Both the position numbers and the translations under genes were made by a program. Below are positions 1 through 52,965 of a stretch of 64,000 nucleotides of DNA, piece by piece (positions within the stretch are counted from its first letter, which is position 1; every line of letters starts with the position of its first letter). The stretch lies in the NCBI GenBank assembly GCA_019636475.1, contig JAHBXN010000001.1, positions 434,001-498,000 on the forward strand, read 5' to 3'. Origin of the DNA: Phycisphaerae bacterium (GTDB taxonomy: Bacteria > Planctomycetota > Phycisphaerae > UBA1845 > UTPLA1). Under the pieces are notes generated by a model. That model did not search any database and was not told the origin of the DNA. It saw nothing but the letters and a program-made list of their open reading frames with translations.

Positions 1-503
1 AACGCGGTCTCCTGATTCATCGTTCCGTCAAGATACGGATCAAACGCATCCGCCTTCATTCGCTGCCACGTCGGAGCCATCACCAGCATCGTCATGATGA
101 TCGACAATCCGGTCAGCACCTGTCCCGGCGGCAACTGCTGAGTGCCGATCGCCTGTCGCAGCAAAGCGAGCACCACCATGATACGGGTGAAGCTCGTCAT
201 CATGATCAGAATCGACGGAGCCAGAGACAGCACCGTCAGCAGAACAAGAATCTTGATCGAGGCGCTGACGCCCTTCGCATCGGTCGCCGTCGGAAAGAAC
301 TGGCTCACATCCGGAATTCCGAGCGGATTGGGCGAACCAGATGCAGCCTCGGCGTCCGACTCGTCGACGATTGCACTCGATACGCCGTTGGCAGAGAGTT
401 GTGCGCGGACCGGTACGGGCGCACTCAGGAGCACGACGCCCGATGCGAAAGCCACCGAGAGGATAAATCGCGATCGCCGCAGTGGACGACGCAGGCACGA
501 CAT
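1..503 (-). CDS. fliP: Flagellar export gate protein FliP (3' end cut by window)
   Basis: FliP is an inner-membrane subunit of the flagellar type III export gate, working with FliQ and FliR. The reading frame starts at ATG 501-503 and stays open to base 1, giving 167 residues of a family that is usually about 250 long. An N-terminal signal-peptide-like stretch ends near an alanine-rich VRAQL site. It is followed by the conserved FliP segments SLAPSILIMMTSFTRI, LLRQAIGTQQLPPGQ and VMAPTW. An AAAGGAG ribosome site sits 6 bases before this ATG and decides the start. The gene is 38 bases after fliO and is the last flagellar gene visible; fliQ, fliR, flhB and flhA would be expected beyond the window edge. 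Confidence 0.95.
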   Translation of the reverse strand, partial: MSCLRRPLRRSRFILSVAFASGVVLLSAPVPVRAQLSANGVSSAIVDESDAEAASGSPNPLGIPDVSQFFPTATDAKGVSASIKILVLLTVLSLAPSILIMMTSFTRIMVVLALLRQAIGTQQLPPGQVLTGLSIIMTMLVMAPTWQRMKADAFDPYLDGTMNQETA

Positions 504-541: not shown

Positions 542-1270
542 CTACCGCGACGCCGAGTGCTGCGCCGGCTCCGCCGACGCCGTGATTCCGTTTGACAGAC
601 TGCGAACGCGCTCGAGCAGTTGTTTCACTTTCGCCCGCGACCGTGCCAGTTCACCGGACCGAACGATGGAATCGGCCTCCATCGTTGCCGATTCGGTGCC
701 ATCTCCGAAACCCGTCGCTTCGGCCCCCGAAACGGAGTTCGCATCCTCATCCGAAGCCCGCGTGAAGATCGCCGAGAATGATTGAGGGTTGCCGCTCTCC
801 GCAGCCGCGATGATCGCGGACGACTCCTGCAAATCGACCACTTCGCTCAACGCCGTGAAGCGTTCCGGCGTCACGCCCACAAGAACGACGCGCCGCCCAA
901 ACCGCACGACGCAGAAACTCTGCTTCGCGGAAAGCGATTGCCTCGCGATGATTCGCAGTACACCCGAACCCGTGTTACGCAGCGACTGCGGCATCCAGCG
1001 CTTCGCCACCCACGCAAGACCGCCGACGACAACCAACACAACGCACAGCGGCCCGAAGTAGCTGATCAGGCCGGCACCGCCGCTCAATCCGCCCTGAGAG
1101 CCGTAAGCGCGCTCGCTATTCCGCTCAATCACCCCCGGCGCACGCTCGCCGGACACGGGCGGCGCGTCGGCCCTCGCCGGCAGGCAGACAGCTGCAAGGA
1201 TTGCGAAGGCAATCAGGAAGCGTCGGATGTCAAATTCATGGCACAAGGTTATCCGTCCGAACCGGCCCAT
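542..1270 (-). CDS. fliO: Flagellar protein FliO
   Basis: FliO helps assemble the FliP-FliQ-FliR export gate. The protein of 242 residues has a signal-like first segment, then a single membrane helix (ISYFGPLCVVLVVVGGLAWV) followed by the short FliO beta domain with the pattern VLRIIARQSLSAKQSFCVVRFGRRVVLVGV. The C-terminal half is low-complexity with a short charged helix. The start at ATG 1268-1270 was chosen because it lies 13 bases after the fliN stop with a GGAG upstream; longer frames would overlap fliN. FliO is poorly conserved, so the call rests on the membrane-plus-beta pattern and on the fliN-fliO-fliP order. Confidence 0.88.
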   Translation of the reverse strand: MGRFGRITLCHEFDIRRFLIAFAILAAVCLPARADAPPVSGERAPGVIERNSERAYGSQGGLSGGAGLISYFGPLCVVLVVVGGLAWVAKRWMPQSLRNTGSGVLRIIARQSLSAKQSFCVVRFGRRVVLVGVTPERFTALSEVVDLQESSAIIAAAESGNPQSFSAIFTRASDEDANSVSGAEATGFGDGTESATMEADSIVRSGELARSRAKVKQLLERVRSLSNGITASAEPAQHSASR

Positions 1271-1283
1271 CTTGCCCGCTCCG

Positions 1284-2012
1284 TCATGAGGCCGCTTCAA
1301 GGGCTTCGCCGGCGCCCGGCAGGATCTCGCTGATTCGAACACAGAAATTGTCATTCAGCACGAGTACCTCGCCCCGAGCGACCAGTCGATCGTTCACAAG
1401 CACGTCAACCGGATCGCCCGCGAGCTTGTCCAGCTCGACGACAGCGCCCTCACCGAGCTTCAGCACGTCCTCGATATACATGTCTGCCCGGCCCAGTTCG
1501 ATCTTCACGTCGAGGCGAACATCGCCGATCAGCGAAATGCCTTTCTCGTCGGTTTCGCTCAAGCCGCCGCCAAAGTCCGGAAGATCGAGTGCCATTGCGC
1601 CGGCGGTCACCGCCGCCGATCCCGCACCGGATGAAGACGACGACGCATTCATCCGGGCTGCGGCACGCTCCTCCGCGATCGCCGCTTCCATCATGGCCGC
1701 CGCTTCGTCGAACGGCCGACCAGAGGAATCCAGCTTGACCGTTCCATCCGGGTTCGTACCGACGGCCATCGGCGATGGGGAGGAAGATGCGCCGGAACCG
1801 TCATCCTCCTGCGACGCGGCCAGTGCCGCATCAATCTCACTCTGGGAAAACATCGGTATCGAATCGGAGGTCGAACCCCCTTCGTCCGATCCCGAAGAAG
1901 AGGCCGGACTCGTCGACGCATCGCCGCCGGCCGCTGCCAGCGCCGCGTCGATATCCGCCTGGGACAAGCCATCTACGTTGTCAGGATTCTCAGCGGCCAT
2001 CGTCGTCACCAT
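1284..2012 (-). CDS. fliN: Flagellar switch protein FliN with tandem FliM/FliY-type N-terminal motifs
   Basis: FliN forms the lower C-ring of the flagellar motor. The C-terminal 85 residues are a clear SpoA/FliN domain ([41 protein letters not shown]). Unlike ordinary FliN, which is about 100-140 residues, this 242-residue protein has a long acidic, Ser/Ala-rich N-terminus with two near-identical motifs, [12 protein letters not shown] and [12 protein letters not shown]. These match the EIDALL motif by which FliM and Bacillus FliY bind CheY-phosphate. No CheC-like middle domain as in FliY is visible. FliM is absent from its normal place upstream, so this protein may take over the CheY contact; that is inference. 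An alternative start is ATG at 2000. Confidence 0.92.
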
Positions 2013-2103
2013 CCATGGTCAGTGGCCCGGCCGCGCTCCACGCGGCCCTCATCTGCCGGTCTGGAATCAGCACGGCGGTCCCCGTTCTTGCCGACGATCG
2101 CTG

Positions 2104-2655
2104 CTAATAGCCCAGCGGCATCGGCGTGAACTCCGGAATCAGCACCTCTTCAATAATTTTGTCGTCCGCCAGCAGATTGCTCAGCTCAATTCGAATCTTA
2201 CGTTTCAGCGTCTCAAGGCCCGGCTCCGTCAGGTGCTTGCCCTCGGCGCTGCGAATAATGCGACTGATCGCGTCGGTAACCGTGGCTTTGCGGTTCTTCA
2301 GAAAATCCTCCGAGATCATGCCCTCTTTGTCTCTCGGAACTTTGATATCGATGCCCACCGCATACAGCATCGGCCGCACGCCATTCGCGTTCTGGACGCG
2401 AACCTTGGCGACTTCAATTTCCTTGCTGTCGCCAAAAGGCTGTGTCGTCACCTGGAGTTGCGGCATGCCGACGGTCGGATCAGGCTGCGAGCCGAAAAAC
2501 TTCATCGCTGCAAAGATCCCGATACCCTCCAATACCATCAGGCCGCCCACCAGCCCCAGAGTCGCTACCGGCAACTTCTTCTTGCCGGTGGCAGTGGCTT
2601 CGGCCGCCGCCTGCTCAGCGGTCGGTTTATCTGTCGCCTTCGCGGCATCGGCCAT
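2104..2655 (-). CDS. fliL: Flagellar basal body-associated protein FliL
   Basis: FliL is a single-pass inner-membrane protein that surrounds or supports the stator units. The protein has 183 residues: a charged Ala/Lys-rich cytoplasmic N-terminus, one membrane helix near residues 30-52 (TLGLVGGLMVLEGIGIFAAM) and a periplasmic domain ending in the typical FliL pattern LKRKIRIELSNLL, IEEVLIPEF. The start ATG is 2653-2655. A 258-base gap separates it from flbD, and that gap contains a sigma-28-like promoter, so fliL may start a separate late transcription unit (fliL-fliN-fliO-fliP). Bacillus-type operons place fliM directly after fliL; here only 91 bases follow before fliN. Confidence 0.93.
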   Translation of the reverse strand: MADAAKATDKPTAEQAAAEATATGKKKLPVATLGLVGGLMVLEGIGIFAAMKFFGSQPDPTVGMPQLQVTTQPFGDSKEIEVAKVRVQNANGVRPMLYAVGIDIKVPRDKEGMISEDFLKNRKATVTDAISRIIRSAEGKHLTEPGLETLKRKIRIELSNLLADDKIIEEVLIPEFTPMPLGY

Positions 2656-44961: not shown

Positions 44962-47900
44962 ATGACCCTCGCAAGTGATCGCAGGGACGGCATCACCTCC
45001 AAGGCGGACTCATCAGGCAACGGTTTCAAATCACATCGGGCTAACGCGTCATGGCTGCGGGTGTTCGCGGCAGCTTTTTCCGTAATAATCGCAGGTGGCG
45101 CTTCGACAGCTTATGCCGGTCCCGAGGACAACATTCGTGCAAATGCGCTCGCGGTCGAACAAACCGGAACGGAGCTGCGCGCGACACTCGACTATTCAAT
45201 CATCGATCTGCTCCCGATCATAGGCACGCCCCTCAATCCATTCACGATCGAGATCGGACTGGATTTCGATGGCGACCAGACACCCGAATACGTTCTTTAT
45301 TCCTTTTCGGGCCAGACGGTCGGCACGACTTTCGTAGGTCATGTGTGGTCGCAGAACATTCTGCCCGACCTGAACGCACTTCCCCTGAGTCTGCGAATGC
45401 GCAACGGCGCGCGGCTCATCGCCCGACTTGATACCGCCAATACAAACAACGAGCTTTGGGGCGCGGGCGAGGCTGACAATTTCGCGGCATCGGCACCGTT
45501 CTTCGTGGATTTGCGGGCCAAGTCGCTCGTTCTCGATGGTGCCAATCAGGCCACGCTGACCTACCTGGTTGACAGCCCGGCGGCGATCCACGATTCGACG
45601 ATTCAGTTTTATCTCGACGACAATCCGCAAAACGGTGCGTTGGATCCGACGGATTCGCTAGTGGCCGTCGTCAACATCGACGGCACACCCGGAATTCGAT
45701 CAGCGATGGCGGACTACACCGGCCTGGTTCCTGCCTCGGGCCAAATGATCTTCGCCCGTCTTGATACCGGAGATGCGATAACGGAAGCGGACGAGTCGAA
45801 CAACGAAATCGCAGGCATCAACGCCCAATCGACCGATCTGATCGCGATTTCACTCCAATATGATGAGACCACCCGGGACGCGACGCTGCATTATTTCGTC
45901 AACAGCCCGACCGACGTCGCCGCGTATGACATCGAGTTTTTCCTTGACCGAGACAACAGCGGTTCTCCAACTCCAGGAGACGCGCCTGTTGTCGCAACGG
46001 TTACGGGAGATGTCACGCCGGGACCGCACAGCGCCACGGTCAACTTTACCGGTAATGCGCCGATTTCGAACCAGTTCATTCACGCTTGGATCGATCGGGT
46101 GCCTGCCGGCCTGGGCGGGCAGGTCGCGGAACAGACGGAGGTGGCCAACAACATCATCAGCACCGCCCGAACCTTCACGACTGATCTTTCCGTTACCTCC
46201 TTCAACTATGACGCCAATACCGGCATCGCAACGCTGAGCTATCTCGTCAAGAGTCCGACGCCGGTGGCACCTTACGCCATCGTCTTCTCACTGGATCGAG
46301 ATCGCAACGGCTCGATCGGCGTGGCAGACCTGCCGAATGTCGCGCTTGTCATTGGTGCAACAAGTCCGGGCGCCCACACAGCCACCGCGGCGTTTGTGGG
46401 GATCAATGCCCCGGCTTCGAACCAGCTTGTCTTCGCCACAATCGATCCGGTCATGTTCAATCAGGTCGTTGAATCCGACGAATCGGGGAACAATATTGCT
46501 TCGGCGGTCAACACCACGCCGACGGATCTGATCGCGGTTTCGCTGTCGTACGACGACAATCTGCAAAAGGCGACGTTGAGTTATGTGGTGGACGCACCGA
46601 TTCCGGTTCCCGCCTACTCGATCGAGTTTTATCTTGATTCCGACCACAGCGGCACGCCTTCGCCGGCTGACACGCTCGTCGCACTGGTCCCCGGCAATAC
46701 CCAGCCCGGCGCCCATACCCTGATGCAAAGCTACGCCGCGAGTCCTGCAGACAGCGGCCAACTCGTTTTCGCCGCGATCGACCGCCCCTTTGCGACCGGA
46801 GGCAACGTCCCAGAAACCAAAGAGGCTGAGAACAACTTCGCAGCCACGTCAAATTCCGCCACGACGGACCTGATTGCCGTCGCAATGACGTATGACGCAA
46901 ACACGCAGTTGGCGACGCTGGCCTATACGGTGCAGTCACCGATTCCCGTTGCCCCATTCGACATTGCATTCGCCCTGGATTCGGATACAGACTTTGCGTT
47001 TTCGCCGGCCGATACCACCGTGGCCACCATCGCGGGGCAGGTCACGCCGGGCTCCCATGTTCAGACCATCTCGTTTGGTGCAAATCCGCCGGCGTCGAAC
47101 CAGACGATTTTCGCATTTGTGGACGCGACAAACTCGGTGGCGGAGATCGATGAATCCAACAACCTTGTAACCACCACGAACAGCGCCCAGACGGACATTG
47201 CATTGAACATGGTCGGTTCACTGAATTATGATGAAGTGAACGAAGTCGCCTATCTGACATACCTCGTTGATAGCCCGATCAACACGCCGGCTTATACCAT
47301 CACGTTCATTCGCGACACGGACAACAGCTTCACCATTACACCGGGGGACACGATCGTGGGAGTCCAGGCCGGTGACACCACGCCGGGTCTGCACACGATG
47401 GTTCAGTCATTCGAATTCAATCTGGTCGAGCCGGATCAGTGGATCTGGGCCATTGCGGATTATTCGCCGCCGCCATTCGGCAACGTGAATGAGATCAATG
47501 AGTTCAATAACACGTCCTTCACGACAAACACGGACTACCGCGATCTTCATGTCATTTCGTTCACCTATGACTCCAACACCCAGCGAGCAACATTCGCATA
47601 TCATGTGAATTCGCCTGTCGATGTGCTGCCTTATGAGATCCGCTTCTACCTTGAATCAAACGGCACGCCCGGCCTGCAAGCCGGCTCGGACCAGTTGGTT
47701 CAAGTTGTTGCCGGAGAGATCACACCGGGCGGCCACGCCGCGATCGGCGATTACGCCTCGTCTCCGCCGGCGTCAAATCAGCTCATCTACGTTGTCCTCG
47801 ATGCGGACAATCAGGTCGCGGAGAAGAACGAGACGGACAACTTCGCGAAGACCCGAAACAACACGCCGACCGATCTCGTCGCCATTTCGCTGTTTTATGA

Positions 47901-50900
47901 CTCCAACACCGAAGAAGCGACGCTCAGCTACGCGGTGAACGCCCCCATCCCGGTGCCGGCGTACAACGTCGCCTTTTATCTTGATCGCGATCAGTCCGGC
48001 GCACTCGATGTTGGCGATGCGCCGCCCGTCGCCATCGTCTCCGGCAACACGACGCCCGGCGCCTACACGCTCATTCAGGACTTTTCCGGCGACGTGCCCG
48101 GCTCCAACCAGTTTATTTTCGCGGCCATCGACCTGGATGCGGGGCAAATCGGCGCGGTTGTCGAATCCGATGAATTCTCAAACAACCTGGTGTCTGCGAG
48201 CAATTCACTCGGCACAGACCTTGTGGCCGCACAGATCGCCGTGCATGTCGATACGGTCAGTAGTACGACAACCGCCGACGTGGCGTATGCGATTTACGGT
48301 CCGCTGCCGGTCGCGCCGTTCAGTGTCAAGGTTGGCGTCGATCGGAATGCCGACGGCGTGATTGATAGCGCGGGTGATGTACTCGCGGATGTGACTGTGT
48401 CGGCTCCGGGGGATCTGACTCCCGGCGTGCACTCCATCTTCATTCCGAATTTCCGTGCGGCGATTAACAGCCTTCCGATCGGCCAGCGTATCGCTCATGG
48501 CGATCGGATTGTCGCCACGCTCGATCTGACCGAGGGCGGAACGGACGCGGGGGCCGTTCTCGAAACGGAAGAAATCGCGAATAACACGACGTCGACGACC
48601 GTTACGGTTGATCTCATCGCAAATTCGCTTCTGTTGTTCCTCGACGGGAACGGCAATCAGACGCGGGCCCGCGTCAGCTTCACGGTCAACAGTCCCGGCC
48701 GTGTCGAGCCGTTCAACATCGTCATTGGCGTCGATCGAGACAATAACGGCATAATCGATTCTCCGGCGGACGTGCTGACGACAATGGCCGCAGCCCCGGC
48801 AGATCTCCGGCCCGGCGCGCAGTCGACGAACTCGGCTGACTTCCGCGCCGCCCTCGATGCCGTATCTCCGGCACTCAAGCAGGGCGACCGAATCATCGCC
48901 ATGATCGACTTGAACGGCGACGCCACGCCCTCCAATTCCGTCATCGAGTCGGCCGAGGTTTCGAACAACTCGGTATCGCTGCCGCAGCGGGTCGATCTGG
49001 TTGCCAATGCGGTCGACATTATCACCGACACAAATGCCGGAACGACGCGAGCTCGCGTTTCATACACGATTGACAGCTTCGGCGCCGTTGCCCCGTTTAG
49101 CCTGAAGATCGGCGTCGATCGCAATGGCGACAATCGGATCGACGATCCGGACGGCCTGCTGGCAGACATCGTGATTGGCGGCACCGAATTGACGCCCGGT
49201 GCGCACACGGTAAACGTCCCGGGCCTGCGCGCCGCGCTGAACGGGCTTGCAACACCGATCAAGCATGGCGACGTGATTCTCGCGACACTCGATCTCATGC
49301 TCGACGGCAACGACCAGGGCGCGGTTCGAGAAGACATCGAGCGCAACAACAATCGCGTCGCACAATCTCAGACGGTCGATCTCATCGCCAACTCAATCGC
49401 GATTCAGTCGGACAATACCGACAATCAAACCATCGCAACCATCGCCTATACCGTGAACAGCCCCGCAAATGCCGCCCCATTCAACATCCGCGTGGGCGTG
49501 GATCGGAACGGCGACAACATCATCGATGCGGATTCCAGCGACCTGCTCGCGATCCTCTCACCGAGCGATCGCTCGCCGGGCTCGCACTCGACGACAACCG
49601 GTAATCTTCGGTCGGCGCTCGCGAATCTCGTACAGCGATTGGGCGATGGTGATCGAATCATCGCGACGATCGATATTCTGCCGGACGGTTCGCCCGCCAA
49701 TCTGGTTGTCGAAGCTGTGGAAATTGCGAACAACATCACGAGCCAGTCGCAAAGCGTCGATCTCGTCGCAAGCGCCGTCGAAGTGCTTCAGCACCCGGGC
49801 AACGGCGGGCGAGGCGTCCGTGTTAATTACACGGTAAGCAGTCCCGGCGCCGTGCCACCGTTCACCATTCGCGTCGGCGTCGATTCCGACAACGACAAGA
49901 TCATCGACCCGGGTTCCATCCTTGAACTGTTTGATCTCTCGCTCCTCGCGGACGAAAAAACCCGTCCCGGTGACCGGCAAGTCGTCAGCGGAGATCTGAC
50001 GACCGCACTCGATGCACTCGGCTTGAACAACGGTGATCGCATTATCGCGACCCTTGATATCGCCGATGACGGTGCGGGCACACCGGAGAATCTGGTGGTC
50101 GAAGGCGAAGAGATTCAGAACAACGTGACGCGTTCGCCGCAGACAGTCGACCTGGTGGCGATCTCGCTGGCGTTCGATTCGAACACGAATCAGGCGACAA
50201 TGGCTTATGCAGTCAACAGCGTCGGCGGCGTGCCGAGCTATGAGATATCGTTCTACCTCGACAACAACCCGCAAAATGGGCTGCTCGATATCTCGGATCA
50301 GCTTGTCGGCTTCGTCGCCGGCCAGACAACACCGGGCGAGCACATCGCCTTCATGGATTACAGCGCGCACATTCCGCAGACGTATCAGCACATCTTCGCG
50401 GTCGTTGATGACAAGCTTGACGTCGAAGAACTGTCGGAGACGAACAACATCGCGGTCACGAACAACACCGAGATCACCGATCTCATCGCCAACGCCCTGA
50501 CGGTGATCTCCGATGACGACGCGAACCAGACGACCGCTTCCGTCGCCTATACCATCAACGCACCGGATGCCGTACCGGCGTTTGACATCCGGATCGGAGT
50601 TGATCGCGACGGTGACGATGTCATCGACTCACCAACTGACGTGCTCGCCATTGTCGCTGCACCGGATCTCAGCCCCGGAGCGCACACCGCAATCTTCGGC
50701 AATCTGCGGCCGTCGATGGAAGCGCTTGCCCAGCGACTGAACCACGGCGACCGCCTCATCGCAACGCTCGACCTCGCGGACGACGGCACGCCTGCCAACA
50801 GCGTCATCGAACTTGGTGGCGATGAATCCGCGAACAATATCGCCAGCTACAGCGTCATCGTCGATATTGTCGCGACGGCCGTGGAGGTGTTCTACCGCCC

Positions 50901-52965
50901 GTCGACCGGCGACACCGTGGCCCGCGTGAATTACATCATCAACAGCCCCGGTGCCGTTGCACCATTCTTCATCCGGATCGGCATTGACTCGGACGGCGAT
51001 CGGATCATCGATCCGGGCACGCTGCTTGAGACGATCGACGTTGCGGCCATCGGGCCCGGCAAGCTGCGTCCGAACGGCGACAAGCATGTCGTCAACTCGG
51101 GCGATCTGCTCGTCGCACTGAATGCCTTGCCCACGGCCCTTCAGAATGGCGACCGAATCATCGCGACAATCGACATTCTCGATGACGGAGCCGCAACACC
51201 TGAGAATCTCGTCGTCGAGGAGAACGAAACGCAGAACAACTTCGCCCGCGAACCGGTCACGGTCGATCTGGTGGCCCAGTCGATCTTCCTGACGGCTGAC
51301 AACGAAGCGGGAACCACATCGGCCACGGTCGTCTACTCGATCAACAGCATCGGCAAAGCTCCGCCGTTCACTTTGCGGATCGGTATCGACCGCGATGGCG
51401 ACAACCTCATCGACAATCTCGACGCAGGTGACCAGATTTTCGAACAGACGCTAACCGACGTGGCGGATCTGGCGCCAGGCGAACATGTACATATTGTCCC
51501 GGATCTCCGCGGAGCGATTAACAAACTCAATCCGCGGCTGGTTGACGGTGATCGAATCATCGCAACGCTTGACCTACTGAACGCACCGGTCGGTGGCGAT
51601 GAGGGCGCGGTTGTCGAAATTGTCGAAGTGGGCAATAACGTGACATCAGCAGCAGGCACTGAAGATCAGATCATCGATCTGTCGCCCACATCGCTGATTG
51701 CCCTGCCCGGTTCGTTCCTGGTCAACGGCACCTACCAGGTGACCTCGCCCGGAAACGTGCCTGAGTATCGCATTTACGTCGGTCGTGACACGGACGGCGA
51801 CGACCTGATTGACGACGTCCTGTTCGACCTGCCCGGAGCCATTGAGCCCGGCGTACACGAGTTCAACGTTGATCTCGCGCCAGAGCTGCGGGCCGTCGGA
51901 ATTGCTTCCGGCGAAACCGTAAACGTCATCATGCAGCTCGATCCGACCAATGCCGTCGTCGAGCGATATGAGAACAACAACGTTAAGACAGCCACAGGCG
52001 ACTACCTGGTCGATCTTGTCGGCCGGTATCTGACGCACGCCTGCGCGATTCTTGATACGCCGTTCGATGTGACAGTCCAGTACGACATCGCGAAGAACGA
52101 TCCGACCGAAACGTATCAAATCTGCCTGTTCGCCTCCCACAATGATGATGCATCGATCGGCCCCGACGACGTGCTGCTGGGCTGCGTCAGCGTGAGCGAT
52201 GCGTTGAACCGGACGGTGGGTCAGCACACGGTCATCATTCCAGGCGTAATCGTATCGGCCGCTGACTTCGTGACGAATCATTTCGTGATAAAGGCCGCTC
52301 TCGACCGCGACGGCGTGGTCCTCGAAACCGACGAAACGAACAACGTGCTCGTTCGGTCGAACGGCCCGATGAATGATGTCGAGGACTCAGATGCGGATGG
52401 CACGCCAGACTGCTTCGACGCCTGCCCGGCCGATCCGAACAAAACGGCGTCCGGCATTTGCGGTTGCGGCGTATCGGATACCGATACGGACGGCGACGGC
52501 GTCGCTGACTGCGTCGATCTCTGCCCCAGCGACCCGAACAAAATTGCACCCGGAGTTTGCGGTTGCAGCGAATCAGAGGCGGATTCCGATGGTGATGGTG
52601 TCCCGGACTGCCTCGATCAATGCCCGAATGACGCAGCCAAGCTTGAGCCGGGCATTTGCGGATGTGGCGTTGTCGACAGCAATGCGGATGCCGACGAGGA
52701 CGGTACGCCGGATTGCATCGATCCGGCTCCCAACGATCCAAACGTGCCCGTGGTTCAGGAACCGCCGGCAGGCCAGCCGAACACCAACAACAATAACAAC
52801 GGCAACACCGGAATCAGAATCTCGGTCGTACAACTCATCCCCGGTTTGCCAGTGTGCGGTGTTGAGTTGTGCGGAACGAACCTATTTGCTCCGCTCCTGG
52901 GCTTCCTCATCGGATATGGCGGATTGCGGCGCGCGGCCCGGCGGCAGATGAAGCGCCGCCGCTGA
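44962..52965 (+). CDS. Giant secreted CARDB-repeat protein with TSP3 repeats and C-terminal anchor
   Basis: A 2667-residue protein. A signal peptide (hydrophobic part about 32-52, VFAAAFSVIIAGGASTAYA) is followed by about 20 CARDB-like Ig-fold repeats of 105-135 residues. They fall in two forms: form A (about repeats 2-9 and 15) with ATLSYxVxSP, TPGxHT and SNQxIFAxID; form B (about 10-14 and 16-18) with a calcium-loop-like GVDRNGDxxID and GDRIIATLDL. Residues about 2470-2595 hold Asp/Cys-rich thrombospondin type 3 repeats (DSDGDGVPDCLDQCP). An Asn/Gly linker follows. The tail (2629-2667) has CGVELCG, a membrane helix and an Arg/Lys-rich end, like a sorting signal. It is probably a surface or adhesion protein. 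Start ATG 44962 has AAAGGA upstream. Confidence 0.88.
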   Translation: MTLASDRRDGITSKADSSGNGFKSHRANASWLRVFAAAFSVIIAGGASTAYAGPEDNIRANALAVEQTGTELRATLDYSIIDLLPIIGTPLNPFTIEIGLDFDGDQTPEYVLYSFSGQTVGTTFVGHVWSQNILPDLNALPLSLRMRNGARLIARLDTANTNNELWGAGEADNFAASAPFFVDLRAKSLVLDGANQATLTYLVDSPAAIHDSTIQFYLDDNPQNGALDPTDSLVAVVNIDGTPGIRSAMADYTGLVPASGQMIFARLDTGDAITEADESNNEIAGINAQSTDLIAISLQYDETTRDATLHYFVNSPTDVAAYDIEFFLDRDNSGSPTPGDAPVVATVTGDVTPGPHSATVNFTGNAPISNQFIHAWIDRVPAGLGGQVAEQTEVANNIISTARTFTTDLSVTSFNYDANTGIATLSYLVKSPTPVAPYAIVFSLDRDRNGSIGVADLPNVALVIGATSPGAHTATAAFVGINAPASNQLVFATIDPVMFNQVVESDESGNNIASAVNTTPTDLIAVSLSYDDNLQKATLSYVVDAPIPVPAYSIEFYLDSDHSGTPSPADTLVALVPGNTQPGAHTLMQSYAASPADSGQLVFAAIDRPFATGGNVPETKEAENNFAATSNSATTDLIAVAMTYDANTQLATLAYTVQSPIPVAPFDIAFALDSDTDFAFSPADTTVATIAGQVTPGSHVQTISFGANPPASNQTIFAFVDATNSVAEIDESNNLVTTTNSAQTDIALNMVGSLNYDEVNEVAYLTYLVDSPINTPAYTITFIRDTDNSFTITPGDTIVGVQAGDTTPGLHTMVQSFEFNLVEPDQWIWAIADYSPPPFGNVNEINEFNNTSFTTNTDYRDLHVISFTYDSNTQRATFAYHVNSPVDVLPYEIRFYLESNGTPGLQAGSDQLVQVVAGEITPGGHAAIGDYASSPPASNQLIYVVLDADNQVAEKNETDNFAKTRNNTPTDLVAISLFYDSNTEEATLSYAVNAPIPVPAYNVAFYLDRDQSGALDVGDAPPVAIVSGNTTPGAYTLIQDFSGDVPGSNQFIFAAIDLDAGQIGAVVESDEFSNNLVSASNSLGTDLVAAQIAVHVDTVSSTTTADVAYAIYGPLPVAPFSVKVGVDRNADGVIDSAGDVLADVTVSAPGDLTPGVHSIFIPNFRAAINSLPIGQRIAHGDRIVATLDLTEGGTDAGAVLETEEIANNTTSTTVTVDLIANSLLLFLDGNGNQTRARVSFTVNSPGRVEPFNIVIGVDRDNNGIIDSPADVLTTMAAAPADLRPGAQSTNSADFRAALDAVSPALKQGDRIIAMIDLNGDATPSNSVIESAEVSNNSVSLPQRVDLVANAVDIITDTNAGTTRARVSYTIDSFGAVAPFSLKIGVDRNGDNRIDDPDGLLADIVIGGTELTPGAHTVNVPGLRAALNGLATPIKHGDVILATLDLMLDGNDQGAVREDIERNNNRVAQSQTVDLIANSIAIQSDNTDNQTIATIAYTVNSPANAAPFNIRVGVDRNGDNIIDADSSDLLAILSPSDRSPGSHSTTTGNLRSALANLVQRLGDGDRIIATIDILPDGSPANLVVEAVEIANNITSQSQSVDLVASAVEVLQHPGNGGRGVRVNYTVSSPGAVPPFTIRVGVDSDNDKIIDPGSILELFDLSLLADEKTRPGDRQVVSGDLTTALDALGLNNGDRIIATLDIADDGAGTPENLVVEGEEIQNNVTRSPQTVDLVAISLAFDSNTNQATMAYAVNSVGGVPSYEISFYLDNNPQNGLLDISDQLVGFVAGQTTPGEHIAFMDYSAHIPQTYQHIFAVVDDKLDVEELSETNNIAVTNNTEITDLIANALTVISDDDANQTTASVAYTINAPDAVPAFDIRIGVDRDGDDVIDSPTDVLAIVAAPDLSPGAHTAIFGNLRPSMEALAQRLNHGDRLIATLDLADDGTPANSVIELGGDESANNIASYSVIVDIVATAVEVFYRPSTGDTVARVNYIINSPGAVAPFFIRIGIDSDGDRIIDPGTLLETIDVAAIGPGKLRPNGDKHVVNSGDLLVALNALPTALQNGDRIIATIDILDDGAATPENLVVEENETQNNFAREPVTVDLVAQSIFLTADNEAGTTSATVVYSINSIGKAPPFTLRIGIDRDGDNLIDNLDAGDQIFEQTLTDVADLAPGEHVHIVPDLRGAINKLNPRLVDGDRIIATLDLLNAPVGGDEGAVVEIVEVGNNVTSAAGTEDQIIDLSPTSLIALPGSFLVNGTYQVTSPGNVPEYRIYVGRDTDGDDLIDDVLFDLPGAIEPGVHEFNVDLAPELRAVGIASGETVNVIMQLDPTNAVVERYENNNVKTATGDYLVDLVGRYLTHACAILDTPFDVTVQYDIAKNDPTETYQICLFASHNDDASIGPDDVLLGCVSVSDALNRTVGQHTVIIPGVIVSAADFVTNHFVIKAALDRDGVVLETDETNNVLVRSNGPMNDVEDSDADGTPDCFDACPADPNKTASGICGCGVSDTDTDGDGVADCVDLCPSDPNKIAPGVCGCSESEADSDGDGVPDCLDQCPNDAAKLEPGICGCGVVDSNADADEDGTPDCIDPAPNDPNVPVVQEPPAGQPNTNNNNNGNTGIRISVVQLIPGLPVCGVELCGTNLFAPLLGFLIGYGGLRRAARRQMKRRR

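Follow-up and report, generated by a model that had tools for sequence, protein, structure and literature searches.

A FliN with two FliM-type motifs in its disordered tail, and a FliM encoded away from the flagellar operon, in a Phycisphaerae bacterium

How is the flagellar switch composed in a bacterium whose fliL is followed by fliN with no fliM between them? The question is raised by a 64,000-nucleotide stretch of the genome of a Phycisphaerae bacterium (the window, which here means the whole of this stretch), in which the gap between a fliL-like gene and fliN is exactly 91 bases and the N-terminus of FliN bears two motifs of the type (EIDALL) found on the CheY-docking peptide of FliM. The initial annotation, which measured this order against a Bacillus-type operon, took it as a hint that fliM had been lost, moved or fused and that FliN binds phosphorylated CheY (CheY-P) in place of FliM. 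The gene order and the gap were confirmed by the coordinates (Table 1).

By model score, the product of the gene is classified as a true FliN (TIGR02480, 101 bits, where the cut-off is 84). The closest FliN proteins with a named source come from Phycisphaerae and Phycisphaerales genomes. PF01052 (80 bits against 23.8; E = 1e-22) is the sole domain found in it, and this SpoA domain resembles the structure of Thermotoga maritima FliN (1o6a; E = 7e-20). No match to the FliM middle domain (PF02154), which belongs to the separate protein FliM, and no CheC/CheX-type phosphatase domain were found in the window FliN. The gene sits among flagellar genes, and its product would be expected to join FliM in the C ring. 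The identity of the fliL-like gene is weak by sequence, and is supported by its position and by its conservation, as almost every relative has it preceding fliN. Past the window edge the cluster continues with fliR, flhB, flhA, flhF (TIGR03499, E = 6e-64), an flhG-like gene that encodes an ATPase, and a gene for a sigma factor resembling fliA. The largest open reading frame of the window (2667 residues) lies at 44962-52965 on the forward strand.

Table 1. Features of the fliN locus, with positions in the window
Feature	Positions	Strand	Remarks
fliP	1-503	-	cut by the window edge; PF00813, E = 7e-28
fliO	542-1354	-	downstream of fliN; PF04347, E = 3e-13
fliN	1284-2012	-	242 residues; disordered tail with two EIDAL-type motifs, C-terminal SpoA domain
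SpoA (FliMN_C) domain of FliN	1320-1529	-	residues 162-231; PF01052
Third predicted helix of the FliN tail	1641-1706	-	residues 103-124; after the conserved LDSxGRPFDE segment
LDSxGRPFDExAAAMxxAI segment	1641-1740		residues about 91-124; separates the motifs from the SpoA domain
EIDAL-type motif 2	1818-1850	-	11 residues, FliN 55-65; 22.3 bits
EIDAL-type motif 1	1935-1967	-	11 residues, FliN 16-26; 20.8 bits
fliL-like gene	2104-2655	-	183 residues; directly upstream of fliN; PF03748, E = 0.0017, below the gathering score
Putative flgE, flgD, fliK, fliJ, fliI, fliH, fliG, fliF, fliE, flgC, flgB	upstream in the window		assigned by position and recognisable sequence

The missing gene is supplied by another part of the genome, whose assembly has 4.4 Mb and is 95% complete. 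It encodes one FliM, on another contig (C3; 336 residues, beginning MADILDQSEVDALLNAV), which matches PF02154 (E = 1.4e-65) and TIGR01397 (313 bits; cut-off 220) and has a middle domain, a SpoA domain and a motif of its own, LDQSEVDALL. Of the three fates proposed for fliM, only the move is therefore borne out, and loss and fusion are refuted by the search of the organism's own genome. The initial annotation had named as refutation a normal fliM with its own motif elsewhere in the genome, expressed with this cluster; such a gene, with its motif, is present. About 16 kb from fliM lies a complete che operon (cheW, mcp, cheR, cheA, cheC-like, cheD, cheY, cheB). Its CheY best resembles CheY structures from archaea and Thermotoga, among them 4iga (E = 8e-36), which we take to be the complex of T. 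maritima CheY with the FliM N-terminus. At the position of E. coli CheY K119 (aligned by eye), the CheY of this genome has Ala, not Lys, as T. maritima CheY presumably also does.

The separation of fliM from fliN is not peculiar to this genome. FliM was found in 56 of 61 genomes of the order (60 relatives and the window genome), and in 45 of the 47 that are of good quality. Among the good-quality genomes, a real loss of FliM comes into question only for the two exceptions (G024 and G058, each about 94% complete), where its absence is likely due to assembly gaps. Among the relatives, adjacency of fliL, fliN and fliO is the rule, and a fliM beside fliN was not found, except in a second flagellar set of one genome (G053, contig C29; L005/L017), where fliM, fliN and fliO are adjacent and FliM is divergent; this set is apparently a separate acquisition. 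Because fliL-fliN-fliO is kept and FliM is present in most relatives, the position of fliM away from these genes is a lineage trait and not a local loss. The comparison of neighbours proposed in the initial annotation thus agrees with the gene order seen in the window, and the Bacillus-type operon proved an unsuitable yardstick, since fliL-fliN-fliO with fliM elsewhere is normal in the order.

The two motifs on FliN were scored with a weight matrix, which replaced a simple regular-expression count that missed degenerate copies (e.g., LDPSEIEKLL). The training set consisted of 20 FliM and FliY motifs from spirochaetes, Paenibacillus and related genera, and E. coli FliM, all of them non-planctomycete, because circularity was to be avoided. 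The best site in 20,000 shuffles of the tail reached 19.0 bits, below both motifs, and the next best site in the FliN tail itself scored -3.5 bits; the presence of two FliM-type motifs at the FliN N-terminus, as first described, is thereby upheld. Both match the profile of the N-terminal CheY-docking peptide of FliM and FliY. In the E. coli complex, the FliM peptide bound to CheY is helical over residues 8-15, and FliM Asp12 forms a salt bridge with CheY Lys119 (PMC7012829). The equivalent Asp is retained in both FliN copies, and AlphaFold2 (ten sequences) places helices at residues 18-29 (motif 1; pLDDT about 65-75) and 57-69 (motif 2; pLDDT about 70-73) in a tail of about 160 residues that, except for a third helix at residues 103-124, is otherwise predicted with low confidence. 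A further segment of the tail, LDSxGRPFDExAAAMxxAI, has counterparts of the LDSxGRPFDE type in 17 of the 60 FliN tails of the order; together with the third predicted helix, it may correspond to the α1 swap helix of FliN.

Between the two motif copies, four of the 11 codons are identical, four differ synonymously and three non-synonymously, and a recent tandem duplication at the DNA level was rejected, as these codon differences speak against it. When the whole genome was scanned with a degenerate DNA pattern, 13 matches were obtained, against one for the reversed pattern. Four of the matches lie in N-terminal tails, namely those of FliN (two), FliM (one) and a third SpoA protein (one), so that the N-terminal motif set of the genome is confined to its three SpoA proteins. 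A wider use of the motif in the genome was rejected: the other in-frame matches are attributable to chance, and lie inside folded proteins such as enolase, an SMC-like protein and GatB.

Applied to 60 FliN tails from the family and order to which the window belongs, the matrix detects 79 sites, where 0.6 are expected from shuffling. At least one motif is present in 43 tails, at least two in 25, and none in 17, and copy number within the order ranges from 0 to 4. FliM of the family and order has one motif in 39 of 45 cases; three of the six zero counts (G014, G032, G044) stem from long untrimmed N-termini, and the others have a degenerate LDPNEVNALL (G002, G013) or a divergent LNPQDVDALL (G047). 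On a quick FliM tree (57 rows), FliN copy number has changed at least 25 times, and the state of two or more FliN motifs at least 10 times. The two sets also differ at motif position 9, which is Ala in 47 of 73 FliN motifs and Leu in all 39 FliM motifs. Outside the order, FliN in the rest of the phylum has none, one or two motifs at the threshold used. At two loci from Planctomycetota outside the order (L182, L247), FliN tails have several degenerate copies of the DPSEIEKLL and ISQNDLDALF types, so that such arrays may be more widespread in the phylum than the threshold indicates. The named spirochaete and Paenibacillus loci are mostly in the textbook state, in which FliM and FliY each bear a single motif.

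SpoA proteins number exactly three in most relatives. In the window genome, the third is an orphan of 171 residues (locus L003, positions 1459-1974; contig C7) with one EIDAL-type motif (MFSQEEIDAVLRDA), in which a profile scan finds SpoA alone and no CheC/CheX-type domain; the short form keeps one motif in 38 of 43 cases. Homologues assigned to the same group by best sequence match have about 300 residues in several lineages from other parts of the phylum. A CheX-like match precedes SpoA in five of the nine long homologues that were scanned (E from 5e-7, in L196, to 0.16), and in three genomes (G064, G077, G092) the long protein is encoded directly after fliM. By their predicted domains, the long proteins have the architecture of FliY, and the short one is probably a remnant of FliY that has lost the phosphatase-like (CheC/CheX) domain.

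Parts of this arrangement resemble known systems. The window FliN is like those of E. coli and T. maritima in its SpoA domain, in scoring above the TIGR02480 cut-off and in its place before fliO and fliP, whereas E. coli FliN has 137 residues in structures and the tail of the window FliN, which bears the two motifs, has about 160 residues by itself. To our knowledge, E. coli FliN has no EIDAL-type motif. The motifs share with the CheY-docking peptide of FliM the SQxEIDAxL pattern, the bridging Asp and a predicted helix in a disordered tail, but they are two in number, stand on FliN and mostly have Ala for the first Leu, while FliM keeps one. With FliY of Bacillus, spirochaetes and Campylobacterota, the window FliN has in common the EIDAL motif and the SpoA domain but not the CheC/CheX domain, which the short third SpoA protein likewise seems to have lost. 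The coexistence of FliM, FliN and a FliY-derived protein recalls Campylobacter and Helicobacter, where fliN lies away from fliM and coexists with FliY, and EIDAL motifs on FliN or FliY have already been noted as sporadic (PMC6946799). A partial literature search yielded no earlier report of tandem, copy-variable motif arrays on FliN, and no relevant literature on planctomycete FliM and FliN or on FliN paralogues.

The explanation that we consider reasonably probable is an ordinary FliG/FliM/FliN switch with fliM outside the operon, in which the disordered tail of FliN provides extra putative docking sites for CheY-P. FliM is present with its own docking peptide, and the FliN motifs are therefore additional; that FliN adds CheY docking sites is plausible as judged from the motif sequences, whereas binding by FliN in place of FliM accords poorly with relatives in which FliN is often motif-free and the FliM motif is nearly always present. 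CheY-P made by the single che operon of the genome would first be captured by short tail helices, one on FliM, two on FliN and one on the short FliY-derived SpoA protein, and would then pass to the FliM middle domain to cause motor switching. The copies on FliN would increase the local concentration of CheY-P and the capacity for its capture, and would not replace FliM. That the FliN motifs bind CheY-P, and that switching is affected by this, is inferred. A two-step model, in which N-terminal peptides capture CheY-P before it acts on the FliM middle domain, has been described (PMC9126983, citing Afanzar 2021), and the C ring of Salmonella contains three FliN per FliM (PMC11528121). In the same structure, bound CheY contacts FliM and FliG and leaves FliN untouched, which counts against extra docking on FliN (PMC11528121). 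The Ala that the CheY of this genome has at the place of Lys119 also speaks against it. As Ala is favoured at position 9, the affinity of the FliN motifs may be lower than that of the FliM motif, or their partner may be different, and, as several relatives have no motif at all, the FliN motif is dispensable. More tentatively, and rather doubtful in our estimation, FliN may serve as a multivalent array for CheY-P capture, in which gain and loss of motifs tune the sensitivity or capacity of the switch while FliM keeps one; each FliN subunit would contribute from none to four motifs, multiplied by the several FliN of each C-ring unit.

The main rival to CheY-P as partner is the MinD-like ATPase FlhG, a serious alternative to which we nevertheless assign a low probability: the FliN motifs would dock FlhG and so take part in C-ring assembly and the control of flagellar number, instead of or besides chemotaxis. 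The presence of flhF and an flhG-like gene in the same cluster fits this proposal, as does the binding of FlhG to the FliM N-terminus in monotrichous bacteria and to FliY in Bacillus, but the review that describes these contacts states that in monotrichous species FliN is not bound by FlhG (PMC12826062). The motif, moreover, fits the CheY-docking consensus itself, and sequence cannot separate the two partners.

Quite unlikely is a third possibility, that the motifs were inherited from a FliY- or FliM-like ancestor and are drifting with little function or with weak contacts inside the C ring. The many changes in copy number on the FliM tree (at least 25) and the 17 of 60 tails without a motif would suit drift, but the motif residues are retained while the spacers cannot be aligned, the two copies differ silently at four of 11 codons, and decay does not predict that copies multiply. 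Least credible by far is a takeover of CheY-P binding in the switch by FliN, with FliM lost, fused or without function. The absence of fliM between fliL and fliN and the two motifs on FliN speak for it, but they are outweighed by the complete FliM of this genome, which has the middle domain, the SpoA domain and a motif of its own, and by the persistence of FliM motifs in nearly all relatives, in which those of FliN come and go.

The idea of a lineage without FliM is thus corrected. Models of the switch assume one CheY-docking peptide per FliM, and the extra putative docking sites proposed here would lie on FliN, beside a FliM whose own motif is constant. The relatives provide a natural series of FliN proteins with 0 to 4 copies beside that constant FliM, with which the relation of docking valency to switch sensitivity is directly testable.
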